64,000 nucleotides of DNA from Halorientalis marina (GTDB taxonomy: Archaea; Halobacteriota; Halobacteria; Halobacteriales; Haloarculaceae). The stretch lies in NCBI RefSeq assembly GCF_023028345.1, contig NZ_CP095490.1:1-64000 (forward strand). The letters are read 5' to 3'. A program made the translations under genes and the position numbers. The notes beneath the pieces are model-generated. The model worked only from the letters and a program-made list of their open reading frames with translations, had not been told where the DNA came from and ran no database searches. Below, piece after piece: positions 30,009-55,672 of the stretch; positions within the stretch are counted from its first letter, which is position 1; each line of letters starts with the position of its first letter.

Positions 30009-31142
30009 GAGGGTGTCACAGAATCATTGACACACCTCGACTGAGTTCTTTCCGGGGTTGGCATCTCGTTCGTAATTGGCGATGGCAACCGCCAGCCGCA
30101 AGCAGAGAGCTAGAAACACGTGTGCTTTCACGTGGACGCGGCCTCGGACGCGCGGCGTCCCGAGGCCGCAGTCTTTGCTTGCACCGATCGTTCGTTCGAC
30201 CTGCGTCCGGCGATTGTACGTCTCTTCCAGCACCGATTGCTTCAGGTGAACGTCGTCAGTGTGGTTCTCGATACGGTCTTCGATCCTGTACTCGATGTCG
30301 AGTGGATCGTCGGTGTTTCTCGGATTGTACGGAGCCACCGGCACGACGGCCTTGTCAACGAGGTCGTCGTGCCACTCAAGGATGTCAAAGCCCCCGTCAC
30401 CGAGCATCCAGATCGGCTTCTCGACGGCGAGCGCGTCACGGGTGACGCGCTTCGCCGTCTCCTCATCAACCTGCTTTTGCTGTGTGAAGGCCGCTGCAAT
30501 CGGCAGTTTCGGCCCTGTCGAGACGATCAGACAGCCGTAGCCGTAGTAGTAGCTGTCCTCCTCTTCATCACTCTCCTTGTCTTCGTCCTCATCATCTTCG
30601 CTCTCTGTATCGTCTGATTCAGCCGTTGGGTCGTAGTTCCACGTAGCGTCGTTATCGTCGGGGTGGGCCCGCACATCTGTCGAATCGATTCGGAAGGTGT
30701 TGTCGAGCAGGTCGTGGTCGGCGACCTGCTCGACGAGCTTGGTGAATGCGTCTTCGGCGACCAAGGCGAAGTCCGTGAAAAACCGATGAATCGACTGGTA
30801 GGACGGCGCACTGTCGAAGCCACACTGTCGCCAGATTAGTTCATCGTGGAGTTCTCTGGTGACTGCTTTGACGCCGTAGATGTCTCGGCTGAAGCAGTAG
30901 AGCACTCTCTTGAACAGTTCTGGCGCTTCATGTTCCCGTGTTCGCCCCCACGGGTCGGGGGCGAACACGGGGAACTCCTCCAAGAACGAGAGGTCAAGAT
31001 GCTCGAACAACGCCAACGGCACCGTATCCACGTCTTTGAATAGCTCTTCGAACGAAGGATGATTCTGCGGGGTTGTGGCGCTCATGTTTCACCATTTGCC
31101 ACTCCCCGCTCACTGGTGTGTCAACCTTTCTGTGACGCCCTC
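30009..31142 (-). mobile_element. 1134-bp insertion sequence with 11-bp direct repeats
   Basis: The inverted ends begin GAGGGTGTCACAGAA and GAGGGCGTCACAGAA and both finish in TTGACACACC (28 bases, a few mismatches). The direct repeat TAGACTTCGGT flanks the element at 29998-30008 and 31143-31153. It is inserted in an ISH3 relic. The element has one uninterrupted gene and perfect target repeats, so its insertion looks recent. Confidence 0.9.
30024..31085 (-). CDS. IS4/IS5-superfamily transposase (intact)
   Basis: A 353-residue DDE transposase. The N-terminal part has LFEHLDLSFLEEFPVFAPD and VTRELHDELIWRQCGFDS. The first Asp is in FRIDSTDVRAH, the second in WMLGDGGFDILEWHDDL, and the Glu region is YNRRTQVERTIGASKDCGLG. 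An unusually acidic low-complexity stretch of about 30 residues (near 165-195) precedes SYYYGYGCLIV. It belongs with the copy at 38530 and the relic at 3777. The gene fills the 1134-bp element and appears functional. Confidence 0.9.
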   Translation of the reverse strand: MSATTPQNHPSFEELFKDVDTVPLALFEHLDLSFLEEFPVFAPDPWGRTREHEAPELFKRVLYCFSRDIYGVKAVTRELHDELIWRQCGFDSAPSYQSIHRFFTDFALVAEDAFTKLVEQVADHDLLDNTFRIDSTDVRAHPDDNDATWNYDPTAESDDTESEDDEDEDKESDEEEDSYYYGYGCLIVSTGPKLPIAAAFTQQKQVDEETAKRVTRDALAVEKPIWMLGDGGFDILEWHDDLVDKAVVPVAPYNPRNTDDPLDIEYRIEDRIENHTDDVHLKQSVLEETYNRRTQVERTIGASKDCGLGTPRVRGRVHVKAHVFLALCLRLAVAIANYERDANPGKNSVEVCQ

Positions 31143-31836: not shown

Positions 31837-33786
31837 ATGACTGACCTTGGAGGATTTCAGGATCACGTTGCACGCGTGGATTTGAGCGCGGGCGACGTAC
31901 AGTACGAGGGTATCGACGACGAGGACGCGAAGAAGTACATCGGGGCACGCGGACTCGGTGTCAAGTACGTCTTCGACCAGGGGCCGGACGTGGACCCGCT
32001 GGGACCGGACAACCTCCTGGCGTTCATGAACGGGCCGCTCACGGGGACCCAGACCACGATGAGTGGCCGCATCGCGATCTGTACGAAATCTCCCATCGCC
32101 GGGCAGGTCACCGACTCCCACCACGGAGGCTGGTCGGGGGCCCGGCTGAAGTGGGCCGGCTTCGACGGCCTGCTCTTCGAGGGGCAGGCCGAAGACCCGA
32201 TGTACGCCTTCGTCGAGGACGGCGAGGTCGAACTCCGGGACGCCTCGCATCTCTGGGGCAAGGGCGTCCACGAGACGCGTGAGATTCTTGAGGAGGAACA
32301 CGAGGGGGCCTACGGCAAGAACCTCTCCTTCATGGGCATCGGGCAGGCCGGCGAGAACGAGGTCACTTACTCCTGTATCGTCAACGAGGACGACCGCGCT
32401 TCGGGGCGTGGCGGCACCGGCTGTGTCATGGGCAACAAGGGCCTGAAAGCCGTCGTGGTGAAGTCGGGCACGAAGATGCCCCAGCCCGCGGACAAGGAGA
32501 CGTTCATGCAGGGCCACAAGCAGGCGATGCAGGTCATCCAGGAATCCGACGTGACCGCGCCCAACGAGGGCGGGCTGTCGATGTACGGGACGAACGTCCT
32601 GCACAACGTCACCGAGGAGATGGACGGTCTACCCACGAAAAACGGCAAGTACACCTCGACGGAGGCGATGTCCGACGCCGAGGGTGATGGCGAGCGGATC
32701 ATCGACGCCGAGAAGGTATCCGGCGAGAACGTTCGCGAGAACATCCTCGTCGACGAGCCGACCTGTCACTCCTGTCCGGTCGCCTGCAAGAAGGAAGTGG
32801 AAGTGCAGGCGATGCACAAGGGCGAGGAGATGAACGTCCGGATGGAGTCCTACGAGTACGAGTCCGCGTGGGCGATGGGGCCAAACTCCGGCCACGACGA
32901 CCGCGACCGCATCGCGGTCATGCTGGACAAGTGTAACGACCTCGGGATTGACACCATCGACACGGGCAACACCATCGCAATGGCGATGGAGATGACCGAG
33001 CAGGGCAAATTCGACGGTCTCGGTGACGGCATCGAGTGGGGCGACTCCGAGGAGATGATCGACCTCATCGAGAAGATCGGCCATCGCGAGGGCGACCTCG
33101 CGGACCACCTCGCCGAGGGCCCGAATCACCTCGCCGAGGAGTTCGACGCCCACGACAACTCCCTCGCGGTCAAGGGCCAGACGATGGCCGCCTACGACCC
33201 GCGCTGTATGAAGGGGATGGGCATCGGCTACGCCACCTCGAACCGCGGGGCCTGCCACCTGCGGGGCTACACCCCTGCGGCCGAGATTCTCGGGATTCCC
33301 GAAGAAGCCGACCCCTACGAATGGCGCGGCAAGGGCGAACTGTGTGCCACGTTCCAGGACATGCACGCCATCTCGGATAGCTTCGACATCTGCAAGTTCA
33401 ACGCCTTCGCGGAAGGCATCGAGGAGTACGTCCTCCAGTACAACGGCATGACTGGGCTGGACGTCTCCGAGGAGGAACTCATGCAGGCCGGCGAGCGCGT
33501 CTACAACCTGGAGCGGTACTACAACAACCTCGCCGGCTTCGACGGCGAGGACGACACCCTCCCGGACCGCTTCGTCGAGGGCCACGAGGACGCCATTCCT
33601 GGCCAGGGCGCCAGCGAAGGCGAACTCTGTGAACTGGACAAAATGAAAGAGGAGTACTACGAAGTTCGGGGCTGGGTCGACGGCGTCGTGACCGACGAGA
33701 CGCTGGACGAACTCGGCATCGACGTCGGGCCCGGCACCGGCGTCTCCGCCGACGAGGGCGGCGCGGCCGCGCCCAGCGACGACTGA
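31837..33786 (+). CDS. aor: Aldehyde:ferredoxin oxidoreductase family protein
   Basis: A 649-residue tungsten/molybdenum pterin enzyme of the AOR family, which oxidises aldehydes to carboxylic acids with ferredoxin. The N-terminal pterin-binding domain has YIGARGLGVKYVF and NLLAFMNGPLTGTQTTMSGR. The [4Fe-4S] ligands are C310-x2-C313-x3-C317 (PTCHSCPVACKK) and a fourth Cys near residue 525 (DICKFN). The EYESAWAMGPN and ATSNRGACHLRGYTPAAEI segments are typical of the family. The DNA is strongly GC-rich, like the maturation cluster at the window's left end. It converges with an acyl-CoA synthetase gene that could activate the acid product. The first 25 codons recur as a fragment at 3694-3776. 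Confidence 0.95.
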   Translation: MTDLGGFQDHVARVDLSAGDVQYEGIDDEDAKKYIGARGLGVKYVFDQGPDVDPLGPDNLLAFMNGPLTGTQTTMSGRIAICTKSPIAGQVTDSHHGGWSGARLKWAGFDGLLFEGQAEDPMYAFVEDGEVELRDASHLWGKGVHETREILEEEHEGAYGKNLSFMGIGQAGENEVTYSCIVNEDDRASGRGGTGCVMGNKGLKAVVVKSGTKMPQPADKETFMQGHKQAMQVIQESDVTAPNEGGLSMYGTNVLHNVTEEMDGLPTKNGKYTSTEAMSDAEGDGERIIDAEKVSGENVRENILVDEPTCHSCPVACKKEVEVQAMHKGEEMNVRMESYEYESAWAMGPNSGHDDRDRIAVMLDKCNDLGIDTIDTGNTIAMAMEMTEQGKFDGLGDGIEWGDSEEMIDLIEKIGHREGDLADHLAEGPNHLAEEFDAHDNSLAVKGQTMAAYDPRCMKGMGIGYATSNRGACHLRGYTPAAEILGIPEEADPYEWRGKGELCATFQDMHAISDSFDICKFNAFAEGIEEYVLQYNGMTGLDVSEEELMQAGERVYNLERYYNNLAGFDGEDDTLPDRFVEGHEDAIPGQGASEGELCELDKMKEEYYEVRGWVDGVVTDETLDELGIDVGPGTGVSADEGGAAAPSDD

Positions 33787-38509: not shown

Positions 38510-39547
38510 GCGGTGGGGCAGAAGTGTTCTCATAGCGTGATTGTGGGGCTAGCGACATCGTTCCCTCGATGGTGATTAGCGAGTGCAACGGCCAAGCGGA
38601 GACAAAGAGCGAGGAAGACGTGTGCTTTGACTCTCACTCGGCCTCGGACCCGCGGGGTCCCGAGGCCGAGATCCTTGAGGACGCCAATCGCTGTCTCAAC
38701 CTGTGAGCGGTACGAATACGTCTCTTCGAGCTGTTTCTGCCAGAGACGCACCGTGTCGCTATACTCTTTGATCCGTTCCTCAACGCGGTAGTCAATATCG
38801 AGCGGATTGTTCGTGTTCCGTGGGTTGTACGGAGCAATCGGCACGACCGCCTGCGCCAGCAGGTGGTCGTGCCACTCCAGCATATCGAACTCGGAGTCGC
38901 CGATCATCCAGCGTGGGGTTTCGACGGCGAGCGCGTCACGCGTGACGCGCATCGCCGTCTCCTGATCGACTTTCTTCCCTGGAGTGAACGCTGCTGCGAC
39001 GGGGATGTTGTTGGCGGCGGTCACGACACAACAGCCGTAGCCGTAATAGTAGTCGTCTTCAGCGTGGTCGTAGTTCCACTCAGCGTCCTCGTCACGGTGA
39101 TCAACGGGAATGTCTGTCCCGTCGATACGGAAGAGCTTGCCGAGCGATACCTGCTCGGCAAGCTCGTGGACTAAGTCGATAAACACGTCCTCTGCGACGA
39201 GTTCGAAGTCAGCGATGAACCGCGAGAGTGTCCGCCGGGACGGCGGACTCTCGAAGCCACACTGCCGCCAGACATCCTCGTTGTGGAGTTCTCGTGCCAT
39301 CGGACGCGGACCGTAGATATCGCTGTAGAAGCAGTGAAGGACGCCTTTCAGGAGTTCTGGTGGTTCGTGAACCCGTGTTCGCCCCCGATTCGAGGGGGCG
39401 AACACGGGATAGTCGGTGAGAAACGACAGATCAAGCTGTTCGAACAGTGCCGTTGTCTCGGTGTCCAGTATTTTGAAGACCTGTTCGACCGTAGCGTTAT
39501 CTGGTAGGACGGAACTGGTCGTAGACACATCAGATTCGTCCTACCGC
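38510..39547 (-). mobile_element. Insertion sequence truncating a dehydrogenase gene
   Basis: An intact transposase is enclosed by short inverted ends, GCGGTGGGGC at the left and GCGGTAGGAC (read inward) at the right. The right end supplies the stop codon of the truncated 3-hydroxyacyl-CoA dehydrogenase gene. No direct repeat is evident, and the missing half of the dehydrogenase is not found beyond the left end, so a deletion followed insertion. Confidence 0.55.
38530..39528 (-). CDS. IS4/IS5-superfamily transposase (intact)
   Basis: A 332-residue DDE transposase of the same group as the one at 30024 but clearly diverged and without its long acidic insert. It has LFEQLDLSFLTDYPVFAPS, MARELHNEDVWRQCGFES, the first Asp in FRIDGTDIPVDH, the second in WMIGDSEFDMLEWHDHL, and the Glu region YSYRSQVETAIGVLKDLGLG. 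No frameshift or stop. Confidence 0.9.
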   Translation of the reverse strand: MSTTSSVLPDNATVEQVFKILDTETTALFEQLDLSFLTDYPVFAPSNRGRTRVHEPPELLKGVLHCFYSDIYGPRPMARELHNEDVWRQCGFESPPSRRTLSRFIADFELVAEDVFIDLVHELAEQVSLGKLFRIDGTDIPVDHRDEDAEWNYDHAEDDYYYGYGCCVVTAANNIPVAAAFTPGKKVDQETAMRVTRDALAVETPRWMIGDSEFDMLEWHDHLLAQAVVPIAPYNPRNTNNPLDIDYRVEERIKEYSDTVRLWQKQLEETYSYRSQVETAIGVLKDLGLGTPRVRGRVRVKAHVFLALCLRLAVALANHHRGNDVASPTITL

Positions 39548-40095
39548 TTCCTTGTGAGGACTTCTGCACCACCGCCGATCTCGGTGACGAACTGTCGAGC
39601 CTCCTCAAGCATCCCATCGTCCGTCTTGTAGCCTGAAATGAGTTCGACGAGTTCCATCTTTGTCGGTGGGTTAAAGAAGTGGATCCCGACAACCCGTTCG
39701 GGATTGTCGACCGCACTCGCAATCTCCGTGATCGACAATGCTGACGTGTTGGTTCCGAGCACCACATCGTCGTCAAAAGAGTCGTCTAACTCCTCGAAGA
39801 TAGCCTGTTTGACGTCAATGTCCTCCGTTGCTGCTTCGATGACGAAGTTCGCCTCCGCAGCCAACGTGTCGAGGTCTGTCGTCGTGTGCACGCGGTCGAA
39901 CACTGAATCAGCATCTTCGAGGTAGCCGCGTTCTGCCGCCTCGTGGAGTCCGGTCTCAATTTCCGAAGACGCACCATTGAGAATATCCTCGTCGATATCA
40001 CGGATGACGACTTCGGACCCGCTCTGTGCAACGAGTTGCGCGATACTCAACCCCATGGTCCCAGCACCGACGACTCCGATAGCACGATCTGTCAT
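39541..40095 (-). pseudogene. 3-hydroxyacyl-CoA dehydrogenase, C-terminally truncated
   Basis: The 184-codon frame holds the whole NAD-binding domain and little else. GVVGAGTMGLSIAQLVAQSG is at residues 8-27, IEAATEDIDVKQAIFEELD in the middle and VVGIHFFNPPTKMELVELI at about 138-156. The C-terminal dehydrogenase/dimerisation domain (about 100 residues) is absent: the frame runs into the end repeat of the adjacent insertion sequence and stops. The enzyme would have oxidised 3-hydroxyacyl-CoA in beta-oxidation. It probably belonged to the catabolic island to its right. Confidence 0.85.
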
Positions 40096-42802: not shown

Positions 42803-43891
42803 CTACATCGCGACGAGAGTGACCAGATCCTGCCAGTTCTCCGGAGCCTCGCCGACGGCCGCCGCTTCATTGACGAATTTTGTGACCTCCGCGATGTGAT
42901 CTTCTGACATCCGGTGTTCTTGGTACACGTTTGGAATATCAACATCGAGTTGCCCATGGACATCGTCACCCTGGTGGAATTTCATGATGTACTCTGCTAC
43001 CGCCTCATCTTCGGTTCCAAAGGCCTGCATGAATTCGTCGTCCCCCGGAACCTCGTCGGCAGCGTCCGTCATGAACCACTCGGCACCTTCGTCGAACGCG
43101 TCGAGTATTCCCTGAAGCAGCGCTTCGTTTTCTTCGAGGAACGAGTCGCGTACGACCATATTCTCGATAGCCGGACGACCGAGGTCGTTCGCAGCGAAAT
43201 ACTCGTTTGGAGTGAACAGGTAGTCCAACTCCTCCTGGTAAAAGAGGTTTCCACCGCCGTGTGAGGGCGATTGTACTCCGGTAACGAGCTCTCCGTCGTT
43301 GACGAGGCCCGGGATCGCGGCGAAATCGACCATATCGATGTTGAAATCCCCGCCCTCGGAGAAACTCAGATCCAGCTCGCCAGCCGTGAGCACCTGTATT
43401 GAGGGAACGCCGCTGATCGCCCACGAAAAGTTCCCGATCGGTGCCTGATCATCGTAGAGCTTCTCGAACGTCTCTACCGCGCCGCCAGTGTTACTCGGTA
43501 GGTACTCACTCTGCGCTTGTGCGACCAACCCGAACCATCCGGACTGTGATCGACCAACTACCGAGAGGTCGAGGTCTTGTTCGTCCGCCGCTCGGGCCGC
43601 TCCGATCGTCGTGAGGTCGGCGGCGATGTCCGAGTTCCCGGACAGGAACAGGCTGGTCCCGTCGAATGTCCCCTGGATTCTTAAATTGGCGTCGTCCGGG
43701 ATGGCGTTCTCCAGAATGTTCGTTCGCTGGTTGATGTACGGCCAGATAATTGCCCCGACATTGTTGCCGAAATGTGTCAGCACGACCTCGCTGTTTCCGC
43801 CGCCACCCGAACATCCCGCCAGTCCGACTGCACCGGCTACACCTAGTGATTTTATAGCTCTTCTACGCGAAACAGTTTGTTTGTCGAACAC
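42803..43891 (-). CDS. ABC transporter substrate-binding lipoprotein (SsuA/TauA/NMT1-like)
   Basis: A 362-residue periplasmic-type binding protein of the nitrate/sulfonate/taurine group. A Tat signal (VSRRRAIKSLGVAGAVGLAG followed by the lipobox Cys) is followed by VVLTHFGNNVGAIIWPYIN, GNSDIAADLTTIGAARAADE (ligand-loop region) and a C-terminal part ending in an IPNVYQEHRMSE-type segment. I chose the GTG at 43889-43891 because a TATA-like TATTAATT lies about 22-29 bases upstream. A TTG at 43909 is an alternative that overlaps the promoter. Matching permeases and ATPase are 13 kb away at 56.9-59.4 kb. The ligand is unknown. Confidence 0.88.
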   Translation of the reverse strand: MFDKQTVSRRRAIKSLGVAGAVGLAGCSGGGGNSEVVLTHFGNNVGAIIWPYINQRTNILENAIPDDANLRIQGTFDGTSLFLSGNSDIAADLTTIGAARAADEQDLDLSVVGRSQSGWFGLVAQAQSEYLPSNTGGAVETFEKLYDDQAPIGNFSWAISGVPSIQVLTAGELDLSFSEGGDFNIDMVDFAAIPGLVNDGELVTGVQSPSHGGGNLFYQEELDYLFTPNEYFAANDLGRPAIENMVVRDSFLEENEALLQGILDAFDEGAEWFMTDAADEVPGDDEFMQAFGTEDEAVAEYIMKFHQGDDVHGQLDVDIPNVYQEHRMSEDHIAEVTKFVNEAAAVGEAPENWQDLVTLVAM

Positions 43892-43910
43892 ACTTGGAAA
43901 TGAGTTCAAG

Positions 43911-44926: not shown

Positions 44927-45754
44927 CTATTCTTCGTCTTTGTCGAGCGTTCCCGAAAACGAACGCGATTCGAGATCTTCGCCGCCCATAAACGCGTCTG
45001 CACGGTCGCTGAACTCTTCGGACTCCCAGACCGCTGCTGTCAGTTCGCGCTCGACCTCTCGATTCGTCAGTGCGAGGTTATTCCACCGTTTGAGCATTGC
45101 CTTGATAACGCGGTAGGCCTGCGGACTGTGTTGGGTGATGATCTCCTTGGCGATCTCGACCGCGCGCTCGTCGACCGTCCCGTCGTCGACGACCCGGTTG
45201 ATCAATCCCCACTCCTCCGCTTCCTGTGCTGACAGGAGGCGGCCGGTCAACAACAGATCTTTCGCGCGCCGCTGGCCAACGACGAGTGGCAACATCTGGA
45301 CGCCGCCGCCGGCTGCCGTCGAACCGACCCGTACTTCAGGCTGACCGAACCGTGCTGACTCGCCGGCCACGATTATGTCCACGCCCATCACGAGTTCGTT
45401 GCCGCCAGCGACACAGTTGCCCTTGACCGCGGCCAGGGTCGGTTTCCCGGTCTCACGCAGCAGATTCACCGTGTCTATGTAGCGATTCAGGAATCGATTA
45501 CCTCCCTCGCGGTCCAGCGTTCCGAGTTCTTGTAGACTGCCGCCTGCACAGAAGTTCTCGCTACTCGTTCCGAGAACTATTGCGTCGATGTCGTCGTCGG
45601 CGTCAGCAGATTCGATTGCATGACCGAGTTCCGAGAGGAGTTCGGTCGTGATGACGTTGTTGTCCTCCGGCCTGTCGAGGTCGATATGAAACACTTCCGC
45701 GGTCGTTTCGTTGCAATACGTCTGGAGCGTCGAGTAATCCGAGTCGGTCGCCAT
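44927..45754 (-). CDS. Enoyl-CoA hydratase/isomerase (crotonase)
   Basis: A 275-residue crotonase. Oxyanion-hole segments are SSENFCAGGSL and NCVAGGNELVMGVDII. Both catalytic Glu positions of classical hydratase are filled, Glu in GGNEL and Glu in FGQPEVRVG. The loop after it, VGSTAAGGGVQMLPLVVGQR, is partly like hydratases and partly like MenB/BadI-type ring-forming or ring-opening enzymes. I chose the ATG at 45752-45754 because a TATA-like GTATTATG lies about 27 bases upstream. The longer frame from 45847 lacks family similarity. It would hydrate an enoyl-CoA or act on a cyclic acyl-CoA. It is divergent from the next crotonase gene. Confidence 0.9.
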   Translation of the reverse strand: MATDSDYSTLQTYCNETTAEVFHIDLDRPEDNNVITTELLSELGHAIESADADDDIDAIVLGTSSENFCAGGSLQELGTLDREGGNRFLNRYIDTVNLLRETGKPTLAAVKGNCVAGGNELVMGVDIIVAGESARFGQPEVRVGSTAAGGGVQMLPLVVGQRRAKDLLLTGRLLSAQEAEEWGLINRVVDDGTVDERAVEIAKEIITQHSPQAYRVIKAMLKRWNNLALTNREVERELTAAVWESEEFSDRADAFMGGEDLESRSFSGTLDKDEE

Positions 45755-45913
45755 GCACTGTGCATTCCTGCCGGTGACGACATAATACTTTGCCATACTA
45801 CCACAAGCGCCCGCCACTGGGTACGTTGACCCGCTGTGCATGGCCACAGTCGAGACCGGCTGACTCCTCGTGTCTCCGGACAGTTTTATTCAGGAGCAGC
45901 GTCAGGTCCCTGC

Positions 45914-46693
45914 ATGGACGGCACTGTGTCGACCGAAACAGAGGACCGCATCCGAACAATCACCTTCAGCAACCCGGCGAAACGGAACGCTCTCTCGCCT
46001 GCGATGTTAGACGCTTTCGTGGCTGCCCTCGACGAGGCGGCTGAAGATGACACGAGAGTCGTTGTCGTGCGGAGCGGTGCGGACTCGGACAGTTTTTCTG
46101 CTGGCTTTGATCTATCAGTGTTTGGCGAGGGGTCAGACCCGGACGAAACGGAGGCGATCTTCGATCGGTTCGTGCGACGGCTCCGGTCATTCGACTTCCC
46201 CGTCGTTGCCATGATTGACGGTGCCACCTGGGGTGGCGGTGTCGAACTCGCGCTGACGTGCGATCTCCAGGTGGCGAGCACTGAGGCATCATTCGGCCTT
46301 CCGCCAGCTAAACTCGGCATTCTCTACCCCGCCCGGGGGATCCAACGCTTCCTCCACGTGCTCGGCCCGAGCGATGCGAGCGAACTCCTATACACTGCCG
46401 ATCCAGTGGATGCCGACCGTGCGTCGGAGATGGGGCTGGTTAACGACGTCGTCCCGCCCACAGAACTCGAGGCGAGGGCCTACGAACTGGCGGGTAGCAT
46501 CGCTTCGAACGCGCCCCGCTCGCTCGTTGGTATGAAAAAGATCATCCGGGCGTTCCTCGATCAGTCGACCCTCTCGCCGGCGGAGCAAGAGTGGGTGTTC
46601 GGTCTCCGGCAGGAGGCTTACGAGAGCGACGACCACTCCGAAGGACTGGCCGCGTTCGAGGAAGACCGTACTCCGGAGTTCGAGGGACAGTGA
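45914..46693 (+). CDS. Crotonase resembling methylmalonyl-CoA decarboxylase (ScpB/YgfG-like)
   Basis: A 259-residue crotonase whose pattern recalls E. coli methylmalonyl-CoA decarboxylase: SFSAGFDL near residue 61, DGATWGGGVELALTCDL near 93, SFGLPPAKLGILYPARGIQR near 120, and the tail YESDDHSEGLAAFEEDRTPE. The second catalytic Glu of hydratases is replaced (PPA instead of PE), while the Tyr that YgfG uses is present (LGILYP). I therefore expect decarboxylation or isomerisation of an acyl-CoA, not simple hydration. The ATG at 45914 has a TTTTATT box about 25-30 bases upstream; the longer frame from 45836 is unlikely. Confidence 0.88.
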   Translation: MDGTVSTETEDRIRTITFSNPAKRNALSPAMLDAFVAALDEAAEDDTRVVVVRSGADSDSFSAGFDLSVFGEGSDPDETEAIFDRFVRRLRSFDFPVVAMIDGATWGGGVELALTCDLQVASTEASFGLPPAKLGILYPARGIQRFLHVLGPSDASELLYTADPVDADRASEMGLVNDVVPPTELEARAYELAGSIASNAPRSLVGMKKIIRAFLDQSTLSPAEQEWVFGLRQEAYESDDHSEGLAAFEEDRTPEFEGQ

Positions 46694-46712: not shown

Positions 46713-47129
46713 TCACTCGTCCGCGAGCCGGACAGTTGCCGTGCCGCTCAGCGCGACCTCGCCTTCTTCCGTGTCCAGTGTCAGGTCCAGGTCGGCTACC
46801 CGACGCCCGCTGACCGTCCGTTTGTCCTCGACAGTCCCGGTAGCGGTTAGGGTATCGCCTTCGGTGACGACCGCCTCCAGTTGCGTTTCCAGTGACAGCA
46901 GATCCACTGGCGACTCGAGCTGTTCGAGAACGAACTGCGTCACGTACGATATGTTCGCTGGCCCTTCGTTTACCAATCCAGAGTGACCCTGTGATTCCAC
47001 GTACCGACGATCGAAGTGTAGCGGCGTCGAATCCTGCATGATTGCGGCCATCATCTTGATATTACGTGCCCTAACGGTGAAGTTCATCGGCGTTAGTTCG
47101 TCGCCGACAGCCACGTCACGGAGGGTCAT
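46713..47129 (-). CDS. MaoC-like hydratase (hot-dog fold)
   Basis: A 138-residue single hot-dog protein of the MaoC (R-hydratase) family. The hydratase motif is DSTPLHFDRRYVESQGHSGL with catalytic Asp and His, followed by EGPANISYVTQFVLEQ. The start overlaps the stop of the next gene upstream by four bases (ATGA type). It pairs with the MaoC-like N-terminal protein to form a two-subunit hydratase, as in haloarchaeal and actinobacterial split MaoC enzymes. It would hydrate a trans-enoyl-CoA or mesaconyl-type CoA. Confidence 0.88.
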   Translation of the reverse strand: MTLRDVAVGDELTPMNFTVRARNIKMMAAIMQDSTPLHFDRRYVESQGHSGLVNEGPANISYVTQFVLEQLESPVDLLSLETQLEAVVTEGDTLTATGTVEDKRTVSGRRVADLDLTLDTEEGEVALSGTATVRLADE

Positions 47130-47602
47130 CCGTCGTCACCTCGCTTGAAAATCAGCTTCGACGTGGTACTGAACGCCGGCTGTCCGCTGGCGTCGACGGC
47201 CTCGTATTCGATCGTAGCGAGGTGGAACTCCCCCAGCGCGTCGCCCGTTTTTTGTTCGACGGTTTCGATCGTGCCCTGCACCTCGTATGTTTCACCGACT
47301 TCCAAGAGCTGGTGGAACTCGAAGGACTGCGAGACGTGAAATGTGGTGTCCTCACCGATGTCGATATCGAGTGGTTCGGCCTCAACTGGATTCACACATC
47401 CTGCCCAGGCGATATTGATCGCGTACTCCGGTGGGACGAGTTGCGAACCCGCCTCCGTCCGTTCCATGGCCACGTCTTTGTATCTGAACACGTCGTCGTC
47501 GTTGTCAGTCGCATCCGCCCACAAAAACGCCATCCAGCGCTCGACGTGGAATTCGCCGTCTGGGAGCTTTTCCCCTTCAATATCTTGTATTTGTGTCGCC
47601 AC
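47126..47602 (-). CDS. MaoC-like N-terminal (FAS1-type dehydratase) subunit
   Basis: A 158-residue hot-dog protein of the MaoC_dehydrat_N/FAS1-like type, without a catalytic Asp-His pair. It contains HVSQSFEFHQLLEVGETYEV, GTIETVEQKTGDALGEFHLA and a C-terminal strand ending STTSKLIFKRG. Such subunits form heterodimers with the catalytic MaoC partner. It begins with GTG at 47600-47602. A strong TATA box (TTTATATAAC on the minus strand, about 47618-47629) lies some 20-25 bases upstream, so the transcript is leaderless. Confidence 0.85.
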   Translation of the reverse strand: MATQIQDIEGEKLPDGEFHVERWMAFLWADATDNDDDVFRYKDVAMERTEAGSQLVPPEYAINIAWAGCVNPVEAEPLDIDIGEDTTFHVSQSFEFHQLLEVGETYEVQGTIETVEQKTGDALGEFHLATIEYEAVDASGQPAFSTTSKLIFKRGDDG

Positions 47603-48894: not shown

Positions 48895-50991
48895 GTGTCA
48901 TACAAGATAGGCACCGATATCGGAGGGACGTGTACCGATTCGGTCGTACTCGACGACGACGGCCAGATTTACGTAGGCAAGGACTTGTCGACGTACCCGG
49001 ACTTCTCGGACGGAATATTCAATTCGCTTGCCGATGCAACTGCGGAGTTGGACATCGGTGTCGAGGAACTCATTCAGGAGACATCGCTGTTCTTTCATGC
49101 CACGACAGTCGGTGAGAACACACTGTTCGAGCGCGACGGGGCAAAGACTGGACTGATCACTACGAAGGGATTCGAGGAGACTCTGAGCTCGACCCGCGGC
49201 GCGTACGGTCGCTGGGCCGGCCTCTCCTCGGACGAGGCCAAAGACCTGATCCACACCGACCGCCCCGAACCACTGGTGCCAATGGATCGAATCGAGGGAA
49301 TCAGCGAGCGAGCGTTCAGGGACAAGATTATCAAACCGCTGGACGAGGACGAGGTGATCGACGCTCTCGACTCCTTTGCCGACGACCTGGACGCGATCGC
49401 ATGCTGTTTCCTGTGGTCCTCGCACTCTGACGAACACGAACTGGCGGTCAAACGGATCATCGAAGAAGAGTATCCGGAGCTGTACGTGTCGATCTCGAGT
49501 GAGATCTCGCCGACGATGGGCGAATACGAACGGACGTCTACAACGACGATCAACTCCTACATCGGGCCAACGACGGAACAGTACCTCGACAGTCTCCAAG
49601 CGGAACTCACCGAACTCGGTTTCGACGGGACGATGTTGCTGATGCTTTCTCACGGCGGGGTCGTCTCGAAGGAATCCGCGACTGAACAGCCCGTCGGACT
49701 GATCGAATCTGGGCCCGTCGGTGGGCTGTTGGGGAGCCGTTTCGTCTCGAACAAGATGGGTGTCGAAAATATCATTTCGACAGACATGGGCGGAACGACG
49801 TTCAAGACCGGTGTGATCAACAACAATCGACTGGAGTACGCCGACGAACCGCTCGTCGGGCGACTTCACTACCAGTTCCCGAAACGGGATATCCACTCGA
49901 TCGCTGTTGCCGGGGGCAGCATCATCTCGTTCGAGGAAGGGACGAACATCCCCACAGTGGGTCCACAGAGTGCCGGATCGGAACCCGGACCGGTCTGTTA
50001 CGGCCGTGGCGGGATGCAGCCGACGGTCACCGACGTGGACCTGATTCAGGGGTATTTTTCGCCGGATTACTTCCTGGGTGGCAAAAAAGAGATGGATCCG
50101 GACCTCGCCTTCGAGGTGTTCGAAGAAAAGATCGCCGAACCGATGGGCAAAGAGCCGGTCAAAGCGGCGGCCGACATCTACAAGCTCATCAACTCCATGA
50201 TCGCGGATCTCCTCCACGAGATCACCATCGAGAAGGGGATCGATCCGCGGGAATTCACGCTCGTCGCGATCGGTGGTGCAGCGGGCATGCATGCGGCCTC
50301 GTACGCGAGGGAACTCGACATCCCGGAGGTGTTGGTCCCCTACACTGCATCGGTCAATAGTGCACTCGGGTTGCTCTCGACGGATGTGACACACGAGTAC
50401 ACCGAGGCGAACCAGTTGGAACCACCGTTCGACCTGGACCAGATCAACAGCAGTTTCGAGTCGCTAGAGGAGACTGCCCGTGAGAAACTCGCCGAGGAGG
50501 GGTTCCAGCCCGAAGAGGTCGTCCTCGACCGCTCGATCAGCATGCGCTACCAGCGCCAGGTGCATGAGGTACAGACACAGATCGAAACCGAGGGACCGCT
50601 CGACGAGAGCGATCTCGAGACGGTCGTCGATCGCTTCGAGACCCTCTATCAGCGACGGTATGGCGAAGGGTCAGTGTACAGGTCGAGCGGCATCGAGATG
50701 ACGGACTTCCACGTCCGGGCGATCGGCCCACTGTCGACGCCGGAACCGTACGAACACGACCTCGTTGACTCGAGCGCTAGCGCTGCACAGGTCGACACGA
50801 ACGACGTGTACTTCGAGAGTACGAACGGGTTTACCGAGACCCCGATCTACGACTTCGAGGCGCTGCAACCCGGCAACGTTATCGACGGCCCGGGGATCAT
50901 ACTGACGCCAGTTACCAGCATCGTCGTCACACCGGAAGACCGGGCCGAGATGGACGCGTATCGGAACATCCGGATCAAAATCGAGAGTTAA
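48895..50991 (+). CDS. hyuA: HyuA-type subunit of a hydantoinase/ketone carboxylase family enzyme
   Basis: A 698-residue protein of the HyuA/acetone carboxylase beta-like family (ASKHA fold). The N-terminal phosphate motif is GTDIGGTCTDSVVLDDDG. FFHATTVGENTLFERDGAKT, STDMGGTTFKTGVINN and GGAAGMHAASYARELDIPEV are the other ATP-site segments. The family uses ATP to open lactams (hydantoinase, oxoprolinase) or to carboxylate ketones (acetone and acetophenone carboxylases). Translation starts at a GTG. The hyuB gene follows after four bases. The carboxylase-like zinc domain in HyuB favours the ketone carboxylase branch (inference). Confidence 0.9.
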   Translation: MSYKIGTDIGGTCTDSVVLDDDGQIYVGKDLSTYPDFSDGIFNSLADATAELDIGVEELIQETSLFFHATTVGENTLFERDGAKTGLITTKGFEETLSSTRGAYGRWAGLSSDEAKDLIHTDRPEPLVPMDRIEGISERAFRDKIIKPLDEDEVIDALDSFADDLDAIACCFLWSSHSDEHELAVKRIIEEEYPELYVSISSEISPTMGEYERTSTTTINSYIGPTTEQYLDSLQAELTELGFDGTMLLMLSHGGVVSKESATEQPVGLIESGPVGGLLGSRFVSNKMGVENIISTDMGGTTFKTGVINNNRLEYADEPLVGRLHYQFPKRDIHSIAVAGGSIISFEEGTNIPTVGPQSAGSEPGPVCYGRGGMQPTVTDVDLIQGYFSPDYFLGGKKEMDPDLAFEVFEEKIAEPMGKEPVKAAADIYKLINSMIADLLHEITIEKGIDPREFTLVAIGGAAGMHAASYARELDIPEVLVPYTASVNSALGLLSTDVTHEYTEANQLEPPFDLDQINSSFESLEETAREKLAEEGFQPEEVVLDRSISMRYQRQVHEVQTQIETEGPLDESDLETVVDRFETLYQRRYGEGSVYRSSGIEMTDFHVRAIGPLSTPEPYEHDLVDSSASAAQVDTNDVYFESTNGFTETPIYDFEALQPGNVIDGPGIILTPVTSIVVTPEDRAEMDAYRNIRIKIES

Positions 50992-50995
50992 TACC

Positions 50996-53164
50996 ATGAC
51001 AGAACTGCAAGACACGACCGGCGGAATCGACCCAGTAACGTTCCAGATAATCAAACACCGTCTGTTCCAGGTGACCGACGAGGCCGTGACTGCGCTGAAA
51101 CGCACATCCGGCGCGCCGAACACGACCGAAGGCCACGACCTCATTTCGGCGCTCTACACCAAAGACGGAGGTCTGCTAACCGGTGGCTTCGGGTATCACC
51201 ACGCTTACACCGGCGCCTCTCAGGCCACGAAACACATCATGGAGAAGTTCGAAGGGAACATCAACGAGGGCGATATGTTCCTATTAAACGACCCATACAC
51301 TGCGGCTCTCCACGCTCCGGACGCGTATATCATTAGTCCGGTGTTCTACGAGGGCGAACTCCGTGCCTGGTCTGCCACGTTTGTTCACGTCATCGATATC
51401 GGTGCCGTCGACCCGGGTGGCTTTTCCCCACACTCGACGTCGGTTTACCACGAGGGGTTCCAGACGCCCGGAATCAAATTCGTCGAGGACGGCGATGTGC
51501 GTCAGGACGTGCTCGATACGTTCCTGAATATGAGTCGGGACCCGGATATCGTGGAACTCGACATGCGATCTCAGGTCGCCGCGAACAACGTCGCCGAGGA
51601 GCGAATGTGCGACTTGTTCGAGGAGTACGGGACAGAGAAAGTCGAAACCGTCAGCGAGGCTTTGATCGATCAGTCGGAGGAGAAACTGAAACAACGGTTG
51701 AGAGAGCTCCCGGACGGTCAGTGGGAGGCGAGGCAGTACATGGACTCGCCTGTCGAGGACAAGACCTACAAGATCAAACTGACGCTCACGAAGGAGGGCG
51801 ACTCGCTCACGTTCGACTTCGAGGGAACGAGTGGGCAAAGCGAGTATGGCCTCAACTGTGCATACTGGGCGGCAGAGGGGGGCGTCTTCGCACCACTGTT
51901 TCCGCTGATGTGTCACGATATCACGTGGAACGACGGGGTGATCAACGTGGTCGACGTCGAAGCGCCCGAAGGGACGATCGTAAACGCCGAGCGGCCAGCT
52001 CCAATCTCGCTAGCGACGACACATTCGATTCACGTCTGTAACAACCTTTCGACGCTGCTCTGCTCGAAATTACTCGGTTCGACCGACGAGTCCAAGGAGC
52101 GGTCGACGGCAATCTGGCACGGGACACACTGTCAGATCATGCTCCAAGACCGGACCGGCGACCAAACCATGGTCAAGCAGTTGACGGACACTATGGCTGG
52201 TGCCGGCGGGGCCAGGTCCTTCGATGACGGCGTCGATATCGGCGGTGAGACTGCCAACGTCGTAACACGCTGGGGCAACGTCGAGCGACACGAGAGCGAG
52301 ATTCCGTTGATCTATCTGTATCGCCGCTCGGTCGAGGATTCGGGTGGGGCCGGGAAGTACCGGGGCGGTGTCGGCCACGAGTATGCCGTGGTCCCAGTCG
52401 ATCCTGACTCCTTCGACGAGATCGACCTCGTCACGTTTGGACGCGGCATCGAAGTCCCACAGCCACTCGGCATTTTCGGCGGTTACCCCGGCGGGACTGT
52501 CGATTACTCGATCTTCCGGGACATCGACCTCCAGGAGTATCTGTCGACCTTTTCGCCCCCGGACACCGACCCGGACTCCGTGGAGCGTGAAGACGCGCGG
52601 TGGGGAGTGTTCGATCTCGCGGTTGACGACATGTTCCGCATCCGGTTCGGTGGAAGCGGTGGATACGGCGATCCACTGGAACGGGATGCCGACGACGTCG
52701 CCGCGGATGTAAAAGAGGGGAAGATCGACGTCGAAACGGCTCGAACGGTCTACGGCGTTCCCGTAACTAAGGAAGGGAACTTCGATGGCTCCGTCGACGA
52801 CACCCGGGACCGACTGTATTCGGAGCGGTTGGAGGATGCTGACAGCTATGAGCAACCGATCGCCTCCGCAGACACGGAACCGACGGGGTTCCTGATCGGG
52901 GAATACGTCACCGTCGTCGCTGACGAGACCAGTGGCGATAAATACGCAGCCTGCCGGAATTGCGAGACGACCTTCGCATCCGTCGAGGACAACTGGAAGG
53001 AGTCCGTTGTCGTCTCTGAATCCCCGGTCTCCGCTGCTGGCCGCCACCGGGACACCCCGGACAACTACTGTCTCCGGGAGTTCGTCTGTCCCGAGTGTGG
53101 AACGCTCCTGGACACTGAGGTTGCCGATCGGGACGATCCACCGCTCCTGAACACGGTGCTGTAG
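50996..53164 (+). CDS. hyuB: HyuB-type subunit fused to an acetone-carboxylase-gamma-like zinc domain
   Basis: A 722-residue protein. Residues 1 to about 590 are a normal HyuB/acetone carboxylase alpha-like subunit: DPVTFQIIKHRLFQVTDEA, GDMFLLNDPYTAALHAPD, TFVHVIDIGAVDPGG and the usual end GSGGYGDPLERDADDVAADV. A further 130 residues follow. They contain C653-x2-C656 with EDNWKES just after it, and LREFVCPECGTLLDTE with C698 and C701. This resembles the zinc-binding gamma subunit of acetone carboxylase, normally a separate protein. The fusion suggests ATP-dependent carboxylation of a ketone and not hydantoin or oxoproline hydrolysis. Confidence 0.88.
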   Translation: MTELQDTTGGIDPVTFQIIKHRLFQVTDEAVTALKRTSGAPNTTEGHDLISALYTKDGGLLTGGFGYHHAYTGASQATKHIMEKFEGNINEGDMFLLNDPYTAALHAPDAYIISPVFYEGELRAWSATFVHVIDIGAVDPGGFSPHSTSVYHEGFQTPGIKFVEDGDVRQDVLDTFLNMSRDPDIVELDMRSQVAANNVAEERMCDLFEEYGTEKVETVSEALIDQSEEKLKQRLRELPDGQWEARQYMDSPVEDKTYKIKLTLTKEGDSLTFDFEGTSGQSEYGLNCAYWAAEGGVFAPLFPLMCHDITWNDGVINVVDVEAPEGTIVNAERPAPISLATTHSIHVCNNLSTLLCSKLLGSTDESKERSTAIWHGTHCQIMLQDRTGDQTMVKQLTDTMAGAGGARSFDDGVDIGGETANVVTRWGNVERHESEIPLIYLYRRSVEDSGGAGKYRGGVGHEYAVVPVDPDSFDEIDLVTFGRGIEVPQPLGIFGGYPGGTVDYSIFRDIDLQEYLSTFSPPDTDPDSVEREDARWGVFDLAVDDMFRIRFGGSGGYGDPLERDADDVAADVKEGKIDVETARTVYGVPVTKEGNFDGSVDDTRDRLYSERLEDADSYEQPIASADTEPTGFLIGEYVTVVADETSGDKYAACRNCETTFASVEDNWKESVVVSESPVSAAGRHRDTPDNYCLREFVCPECGTLLDTEVADRDDPPLLNTVL

Positions 53165-53977: not shown

Positions 53978-55672
53978 TTATTCTTGGTCGATTAATATAT
54001 CACTGTATTTATTTTTCAGGGTTTTTTTGTTATACTTACCGGCTAGCGAGGTGGGGATTTGGTCTTCGATTATGACCTCTTCCGGCATCCACCACTCTTT
54101 GATTTCACCCTGGTCGACGTACTCGGTGAGGTGTTCGCGCAGTCGCCCTTCGAGGTCGTCGGGCGCGCCGCCCTCGTCAAGTGTTACTATAACGATGGGT
54201 CGCTCGTTCCACTCCTCGTGTTTCGCGGCGACCACTACCGCATCGTCGATTTCCGGGTGATCGGTTAGACAGTTCTCCAGGATTGGCGTTGGGATCCACT
54301 CACCTCCGCTTTTGATCGCATCCTTGAGCCGATCCTGTACACGGATATTCGCCCGGTCGTCGATGGTTGCGAGGTCACCCGTTTTCATGTATCCGTCTTC
54401 AGTTTTCGCTTCGGCCGACTTCTCGGGCATCTTCCAGTACCTGTCGGTACTCCAGGGGGATTTGAAACAGATTTCACCGACGGTTTCGCCGTCCCAGGGA
54501 ACCGCCTCGCCGTTCTCCGGATCGCGGAGTTTGATGTCGACGCCGGGGACGGGGTAGCCGGCGACCGAGTTCTTGTACTCGAGAAGTTCCTCCGGATCCA
54601 TTTTTGCCTCGGCGTTTCGGAGCTGGTGTTGCAGGTTGCTGGTGAATTGTGATCCCGACTCGGTTGCACCGTACATCTGTGATGTGGTCGCACCAAGTCC
54701 TTCGAGCGTCTGCATCAGATCCTTCGACGGTTTCTGTCCAGCAAACTTGACGTGGAGTTGGTCGAGGTCGATGTCCGTTCCGGCCGAGCGACGATCCTCT
54801 ATCGTATCCGCGATTCGCTTGAACAACGTGGCAACGCCTTCGGTGAATGACACTGTTTCCGAGACGATGAGGTCCGTCAGGTTGTCCGGGTACTCGACAC
54901 CTGGAATCACGAGCTTTGCACCTGCAGCTGGTGCGATCGCCCAGAAGAGCCACCCGTAGTGGTAGCTGGGCGGGACCATCAACAAGGAATCCTGTGGTCC
55001 CAGGCCGTTCGACGCGACGTGGCCCAGCGCAGTGAGCACCACGTGTCTGTGATCGTGGGCGATCATCTTCGGGCGCCCTGTCGTTCCGGAGGTCCAGGCC
55101 AAAATCGCAGCAGTCCGCTCGTCGACCTCCGGCCAGTCGTACTCCGACTCCACCTGTTCGAGGAGGTCATCCAGATAAGCAACGTTGTCGAGTTCCGTCT
55201 CATGATCGTCGCCCGCACGATCGACGACGATGATCCTGTACGCCGCCGGATCCCCGAGGGCCGATTCTAGCGACGGGAGGAGATCGGCCGAGACGAAAAT
55301 GACATCCAGCGGCGCGTGACTCTCGATGTGTTCGATGCAGAACCGCTGGTGATCCATCGGGAGTTCGTAGTTCATCGTACAGGGAGTCGCCCCGACGTTA
55401 CTGATCGCGTATACCAATTCGTAGTACCGCCGCGTCGAGTGTCCATACAGTCCGACGACGTCACCCGGACTGATTCCAAGGTCGTCCGCGAGATTCGCAA
55501 TTCGTTTCGTTCTATTCCACATCTGGCGATACGTGACCCGATCGACCCCATCGGGCGTGTCTGTGATTACCTCGGTATCACCGTGTGCTCGAGCGGCGTT
55601 TTTCAGGAAAATCCTGGTATTTAGCGGCGCATCTGCTGTCGTTCCTTGCAGTCCTTCTACCTCTTTCTGCAT
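53978..55672 (-). CDS. AMP-dependent acyl-CoA synthetase/ligase
   Basis: A 564-residue ligase of the acyl/aryl-CoA synthetase family. The P-loop region AAILAWTSGTTGRPKMIAHD is at about 188-207. PPSYHYGWLFWAIAPAAGAK and QMYGATESGSQFTSNLQ (A5-like motif) follow, then GYMKTGDLATIDDRANIRVQ and the hinge DRLKDAIKSGGEWI. The catalytic C-terminal Lys is in SLAGKYNKKTLKNKY. It would activate a carboxylate from the island's pathway. A TTTTATC box (minus strand, about 55696-55703) lies about 25 bases upstream. The dead gene at 20041 is of the same broad family but a different lineage. Confidence 0.92.
   Translation of the reverse strand: MQKEVEGLQGTTADAPLNTRIFLKNAARAHGDTEVITDTPDGVDRVTYRQMWNRTKRIANLADDLGISPGDVVGLYGHSTRRYYELVYAISNVGATPCTMNYELPMDHQRFCIEHIESHAPLDVIFVSADLLPSLESALGDPAAYRIIVVDRAGDDHETELDNVAYLDDLLEQVESEYDWPEVDERTAAILAWTSGTTGRPKMIAHDHRHVVLTALGHVASNGLGPQDSLLMVPPSYHYGWLFWAIAPAAGAKLVIPGVEYPDNLTDLIVSETVSFTEGVATLFKRIADTIEDRRSAGTDIDLDQLHVKFAGQKPSKDLMQTLEGLGATTSQMYGATESGSQFTSNLQHQLRNAEAKMDPEELLEYKNSVAGYPVPGVDIKLRDPENGEAVPWDGETVGEICFKSPWSTDRYWKMPEKSAEAKTEDGYMKTGDLATIDDRANIRVQDRLKDAIKSGGEWIPTPILENCLTDHPEIDDAVVVAAKHEEWNERPIVIVTLDEGGAPDDLEGRLREHLTEYVDQGEIKEWWMPEEVIIEDQIPTSLAGKYNKKTLKNKYSDILIDQE

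Follow-up and report, generated by a model that had tools for sequence, protein, structure and literature searches.

A HyuB protein fused to an acetone-carboxylase-gamma-like zinc domain in Halorientalis marina, and the gamma-bearing HyuAB family to which it belongs

Introduction

Does a zinc domain of the acetone carboxylase gamma type, when carried by a hydantoinase-like subunit, mark a ketone carboxylase? The question is raised by a 722-aa open reading frame (ORF) at 50996..53164 (+ strand) of a 64,000-nucleotide stretch of Halorientalis marina DNA (contig NZ_CP095490.1, positions 1 to 64,000; the window), in which a HyuB subunit and a gamma-like domain are fused. Published classes of the superfamily are hydAB, acxABC and apcABCD(E). 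The gamma subunit partly serves to tell ketone carboxylases from hydantoinases and is stated to be absent from any hydantoinase complex (PMC5214803); its role is described as unclear (PMC5214803, PMC5543143). The original prediction for this locus was a two-gene ATP-dependent ketone carboxylase formed with the adjacent HyuA.

Results

The ORF starts with ATG 4 nt past the hyuA stop and is a HyuB fused to a real acetone-carboxylase-gamma domain, matching in sequence and fold, as the original prediction held. The HyuB domain (PF02538, Hydantoinase_B; residues 12-560, 51029..52675, + strand) scored 402 bits in Pfam. The gamma-like zinc domain (residues 628-722, 52877..53161, + strand) matched PF08882 (Acetone_carb_G) over residues 644-715 with 31.8 bits (E 1.9e-7) in the whole protein, above the curated cut-off of 21 bits and hence a member by profile score, and with 35.9 bits (E 9.7e-9) when the tail was searched alone. 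Among PDB chains, phmmer matched the tail to AcxC (5svb_C, E 6.7e-5) and to the 129-aa subunit of acetophenone carboxylase (5l9w_C, E 0.031), and acetone carboxylase gamma 5m45_C was a further match. Gamma profiles built without the window tail scored it at 61-72 bits and the best of 2000 composition-preserving shuffles reached 9.4 bits, so the similarity is not due to chance. The motifs quoted for the tail in the original prediction were present (C653-x-x-C656; EDNWKES, 664-670; REFVCPECGTLLDTE, 694-708), and the Zn ligands C653, C656, C698 and C701 aligned as counterparts of the published Zn cysteines of Acx (acetone carboxylase) gamma (Cys74/76/124/127; PMC5543143) and of its Apc (acetophenone carboxylase) counterpart (Cys22/25/75/78; PMC5214803). 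The AlphaFold model of the fused protein, with 22 relatives as input, had a predicted template modelling score of 0.84 and a predicted local distance difference test (pLDDT) score mostly of about 90 in the tail. Foldseek matched the model to Apc, Acx, N-methylhydantoinase and caprolactamase subunits, and its gamma part separately to AcxC chains (E 2e-5). No gamma chain was among the VIA-align matches of the full model, a miss that does not count as evidence against the assignment; Foldseek did list one. A model of the isolated tail, predicted with no alignment, was poor (pLDDT 54.7) and was set aside.

The window protein fell within a clade of 79 (SH-aLRT 100) when 115 HyuB sequences were placed in one tree. 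The same clade, as a 16-row sample, was recovered at 100/99 in a mixture-model tree of 39 sequences, where Acx and Apc formed a branch of their own (100/99) apart from it. All gamma-bearing proteins of the smaller tree lay on one side of a branch, with caprolactamase and gamma-less haloarchaeal HyuB on the other, and the HyuA tree gave the same picture as HyuB. The window clade is therefore outside both the Acx/Apc carboxylases and the gamma-less hydantoinases/caprolactamase, and the HyuB trees ruled out that the window protein is itself an acetone or acetophenone carboxylase. On this sample, in which gamma-less sequences are few, either a single gain or a single loss of gamma would suffice, and the fusion state switched several times. 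Tree reference sequences were taken from printed alignments, and a few residues may be wrong.

The metal tetrad of the window HyuB (D48, H106, D109, H131) did not vary across the clade and aligned with the metal ligands of CapB (D41/H99/D102/H124), published along with the caprolactamase pocket positions (PMC8453981). The first ligand was Asp in the clade, Apc and CapB, and Glu in Acx. Pocket residues E45, H69, E418 and R425 were identical in all 78 of the other members of the clade and were kept in the window copy; these positions were hydrophobic at all four in CapB and mostly so in Apc and Acx, with Arg at the R425 position in Apc.

Neighbour families were counted by phmmer around 83 clade loci. 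An isochorismatase-fold hydrolase was encoded within 2.5 kb in 62 of the 76 bacterial loci (not independent events, because many are from related proteobacterial genomes), always on the same strand (64/64 flanking hydrolases; median distance 415 bp), and was closest to RutB, biuret hydrolase and N-carbamoylsarcosine amidohydrolase. Six host genomes held 55 such hydrolases in 34.9 Mb, a background of about 0.008 expected per locus (5 kb). A BMP-type solute-binding protein (24 loci) and an XRE-cupin regulator (23 loci) were found within the same 2.5 kb, a common order in Proteobacteria being XRE-cupin regulator, hyuA, hyuB, gamma, hydrolase, BMP-type importer; the clade neighbours also included deaminases, amidases and molybdenum hydroxylases. 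A TRZ/ATZ-type amidohydrolase lay within 3.2 kb in five of the six other haloarchaeal members, and the sixth had amidase, CDA-type deaminase, RidA and DAO genes; BMP importers, amidases and xanthine-dehydrogenase-type subunits likewise occurred beside these members. The neighbours of the bacterial members thus point to nitrogen-ring catabolism, not ketones. Gamma-bearing HyuAB loci outside the clade had no isochorismatase (0/16) and an acyl-CoA ligase in 6/16, counts that are indicative only, many flanks being short. The window copy belongs to the gamma-bearing clade by the tree and not by its neighbours, since genes for an N-carbamoyl hydrolase, a deaminase or a BMP importer accompany most relatives and not the window pair.

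Among 392 haloarchaeal genomes, a close fused relative (60-61% identity) occurred in 3 others, twice in one. A scan of species genomes gave 80 related loci (43-60% identity), from the haloarchaea Natrarchaeobius, Salinigranum and Halorubrum and from Alpha-, Beta- and Gammaproteobacteria, Actinomycetota, Bacillus and one Anaerolineae metagenome-assembled genome (MAG; Chloroflexota). Gamma was found in each related locus not cut short, as a fusion or as a separate small ORF right after hyuB (the stand-alone ORF of locus L088 was PF08882-positive), and the four Zn cysteines were kept in 80/80 clade gammas. More distant fused proteins occurred in Natrinema, Rhodococcus, Mycobacterium and Niveispirillum, their existing annotation, if any, being hydantoinase B/oxoprolinase only. 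That the fusion is unique to the window was ruled out by the fused relatives in haloarchaea, Actinomycetota and Proteobacteria. No relatives were found in the viral contigs scanned. On Rhodococcus opacus plasmid pCP105 (L054:9893-12202), a fused gamma had lost 3/4 Zn cysteines and its gamma similarity was still clear. In two Actinomycetes MAGs, an acyl-CoA ligase gene lay between hyuB-gamma and hyuA (L068:2736-4364 and the matching gene of L069), and the HyuA of these two loci were the most divergent HyuA sequences.

The same genome held two other loci of the superfamily. One was a genuine acetone carboxylase locus (L001/L061, G000:C1:33355-33690), whose 766-aa HyuB (L061) scored 572 bits to Xanthobacter AcxA and matched 5m45_A at 1.6e-170; the other was Apc-like (L002/L062, G000:C2:78168-78503), with a stand-alone gamma. 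Because the host has both, the window pair, the third such, is not needed for acetone.

HyuA, found adjoining as predicted, is a 698-aa ATP-binding ASKHA subunit (48895..50991, + strand; Pfam Hydant_A_N, Hydantoinase_A, Hydant_A_C), with the ATP motifs DIGGTCTD, DMGGT and GSEPGP read in its translation. Its nearest solved relatives were ApcC (5l9w_B), N-methylhydantoinase (7hk5) and CapA (6yra_A). In NCBIfam it scored 491.6 bits to CapA vs. 362.9 to ApcC, all scores of the pair being far under equivalog cut-offs. The pair has the HyuA plus HyuB make-up, the ATP motifs and the Asp/His/Asp/His metal site of the hydantoinase/oxoprolinase/lactamase group; no second HyuA (kinase subunit alpha') was among the ORFs called beside it.

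The remaining neighbours named in the original prediction were also present. A short-chain dehydrogenase/reductase (SDR; PF13561; 47842..48654, + strand) lies 240 nt 5' of hyuA on the same strand, and an acyl-CoA ligase (PF00501; NCBIfam match under cut-off) lies at 53978..55672 (- strand); either may be a pathway partner of the window HyuAB. A crotonase (45836..46693, + strand) was most like methylmalonyl-CoA decarboxylase (235.7 bits vs. a cut-off of 257). A second crotonase of the enoyl-CoA hydratase type (44927..45847) and two MaoC/hotdog dehydratase-like ORFs (46713-47129 and 47126-47602; together 46713..47602) are on the - strand, and ABC permease and ATPase genes are also near. A comparison with the related loci gave no synteny that would point to a shared pathway, the window ligase, SDR and crotonase all being less than 36% identical to theirs.

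Elsewhere in the window, a lipobox ORF at 42803-43909, without a match in Pfam and NCBIfam, is probably a substrate-binding protein. A transposase-like ORF (38530-39528), resembling 30024-31085 by eye, abuts a shortened 3-hydroxyacyl-CoA dehydrogenase (39541-40095, 184 aa), which suggests a gene broken by insertion. At the contig edge (1-3531), a MoxR-type ATPase, a VWA/CoxE-like ORF and XdhC form a molybdenum-hydroxylase maturation set, the hydroxylase itself not being in view. An aldehyde ferredoxin oxidoreductase (PF01314/PF02730) is at 31837-33786, on this 559-kb contig.

Discussion

On balance, HyuA and HyuB-gamma would form an ATP-dependent enzyme of the hydantoinase/ketone-carboxylase superfamily that opens cyclic amides or cyclic ureides. 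Ring opening is the simplest reading for the family because its HyuA/HyuB genes adjoin those of N-carbamoyl hydrolases, deaminases and BMP importers. That the reaction is a hydrolysis, which kind of substrate it acts on and what gamma does are all inferred, as follows. HyuA would act first, by phosphorylating the carbonyl of the substrate or by making carboxyphosphate; the intermediate so activated would reach the HyuB metal site (Asp/His/Asp/His), at which water would open the ring; and the resulting N-carbamoyl or amide compound would, in most relatives, be handed on to an amidase, a deaminase or an isochorismatase-fold hydrolase. Gamma may be a structural Zn clamp on HyuB, fused to the HyuB C-terminus in the window protein. 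About evenly poised is the broader proposal that the gamma zinc domain is not carboxylase-specific, that a large bacterial and archaeal HyuA-HyuB-gamma family opens N-heterocycles with ATP while gamma was repeatedly fused or split, and that the window copy was re-purposed for a new substrate.

Several observations weigh against ring opening. Gamma is otherwise known from carboxylases only (PMC5214803), and the gamma-bearing side of the tree takes in carboxylases too. The window HyuB was the most altered of the 79: it differed from the consensus of the clade in 19 of the best-conserved columns, with changes in the pocket loop among them (V65F, F67Y, L68H, H70A). No isochorismatase, BMP importer, deaminase or amidase was found near the window copy, which instead has the SDR, the crotonases and the acyl-CoA ligase, the last 1.2 kb off on the opposite strand; an acyl-CoA ligase also adjoins hyuAB in some bacterial members. 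With conserved columns of its HyuB altered more than in any other member, and with a different set of neighbours, the window copy has likely changed its substrate, possibly even to a ketone.

The two-gene ketone carboxylase originally predicted, in which the SDR would make a ketone, bicarbonate would be added via a phosphoenol, and the ligase and crotonases would process the beta-keto acid, draws on the remodelled pocket loop, on a gamma domain with all four Zn Cys and on window neighbours that look like a CoA-activation pathway, a setting of SDR, ligase or CoA-transferase genes also seen at distant gamma-bearing or fused HyuAB loci (Natrinema caseinilyticum, Rhodococcus opacus and others). 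The resemblance of the neighbours stood; the function was not the best-supported one and is rather unlikely, given a clade apart from Acx and Apc, the 60-66% identity of the window protein to haloarchaeal proteins encoded amid deaminase, amidase and BMP-importer genes, a polar, His/Glu/Arg-rich clade pocket largely retained in the window copy, the separate Acx locus, and a ligase on the other strand that is less than 28% identical to the ligases of related loci. Still more improbable is that the pair carboxylates a nitrogen compound at N or C with ATP, as a biotin-free analogue of urea carboxylase or guanidine carboxylase, and that an isochorismatase-fold hydrolase or amidase then cleaves the product. 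Even caprolactamase requires bicarbonate (PMC8453981), and AtzE-like and allophanate-hydrolase-like amidases are encoded near haloarchaeal loci; plain ring opening accounts for the same neighbours. We know of no superfamily precedent for such a reaction.

Among known systems, the window pair shares with AcxABC of Xanthobacter (5svb, 5m45) the HyuA/HyuB/gamma make-up, a metal site in the HyuB homologue, and a gamma with a CxC/CxxC Zn ribbon and (D)NWK and CPECGT motifs. It differs in the fusion of gamma to HyuB, in Asp48 as metal ligand in place of Acx Glu89, and in a HyuB only 21-22% identical over the fold; with neither the Glu ligand nor a place in the Acx branch, it is not an Acx member. 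ApcABCDE of Aromatoleum (5l9w) was the top PDB match of the window HyuB (1e-57) and HyuA, and has the same Asp/His/Asp/His metal site and a gamma counterpart. The window protein lies outside the Apc branch, its clade pocket is polar where that of Apc is mostly hydrophobic, and no second kinase subunit alpha' or epsilon gene was seen alongside the pair, so that the locus is not the four- or five-gene apcABCD(E) cluster with alpha'. CapAB (6yra) and N-methylhydantoinase (7hk5/9h03) share the two-part HyuA/HyuB, the ATP motifs, the metal tetrad and HyuA similarity, and, with the clade, a N-catabolic setting; they are without gamma, and identity is about 25%. With its fused gamma, the window protein departs from the gamma-less definition of hydantoinases (PMC5214803).

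The HyuA-HyuB-gamma family is widespread and undescribed: searches of the open-access literature found neither a gamma-bearing hydantoinase nor a HyuB-gamma fusion or family described. If the ring-opening function holds, a gamma-bearing, N-catabolic family outside Acx and Apc would break the gamma-based rule, and the annotation of many genomes would be affected. The fused two-gene system would also allow gamma function to be probed directly by deletion of the domain.
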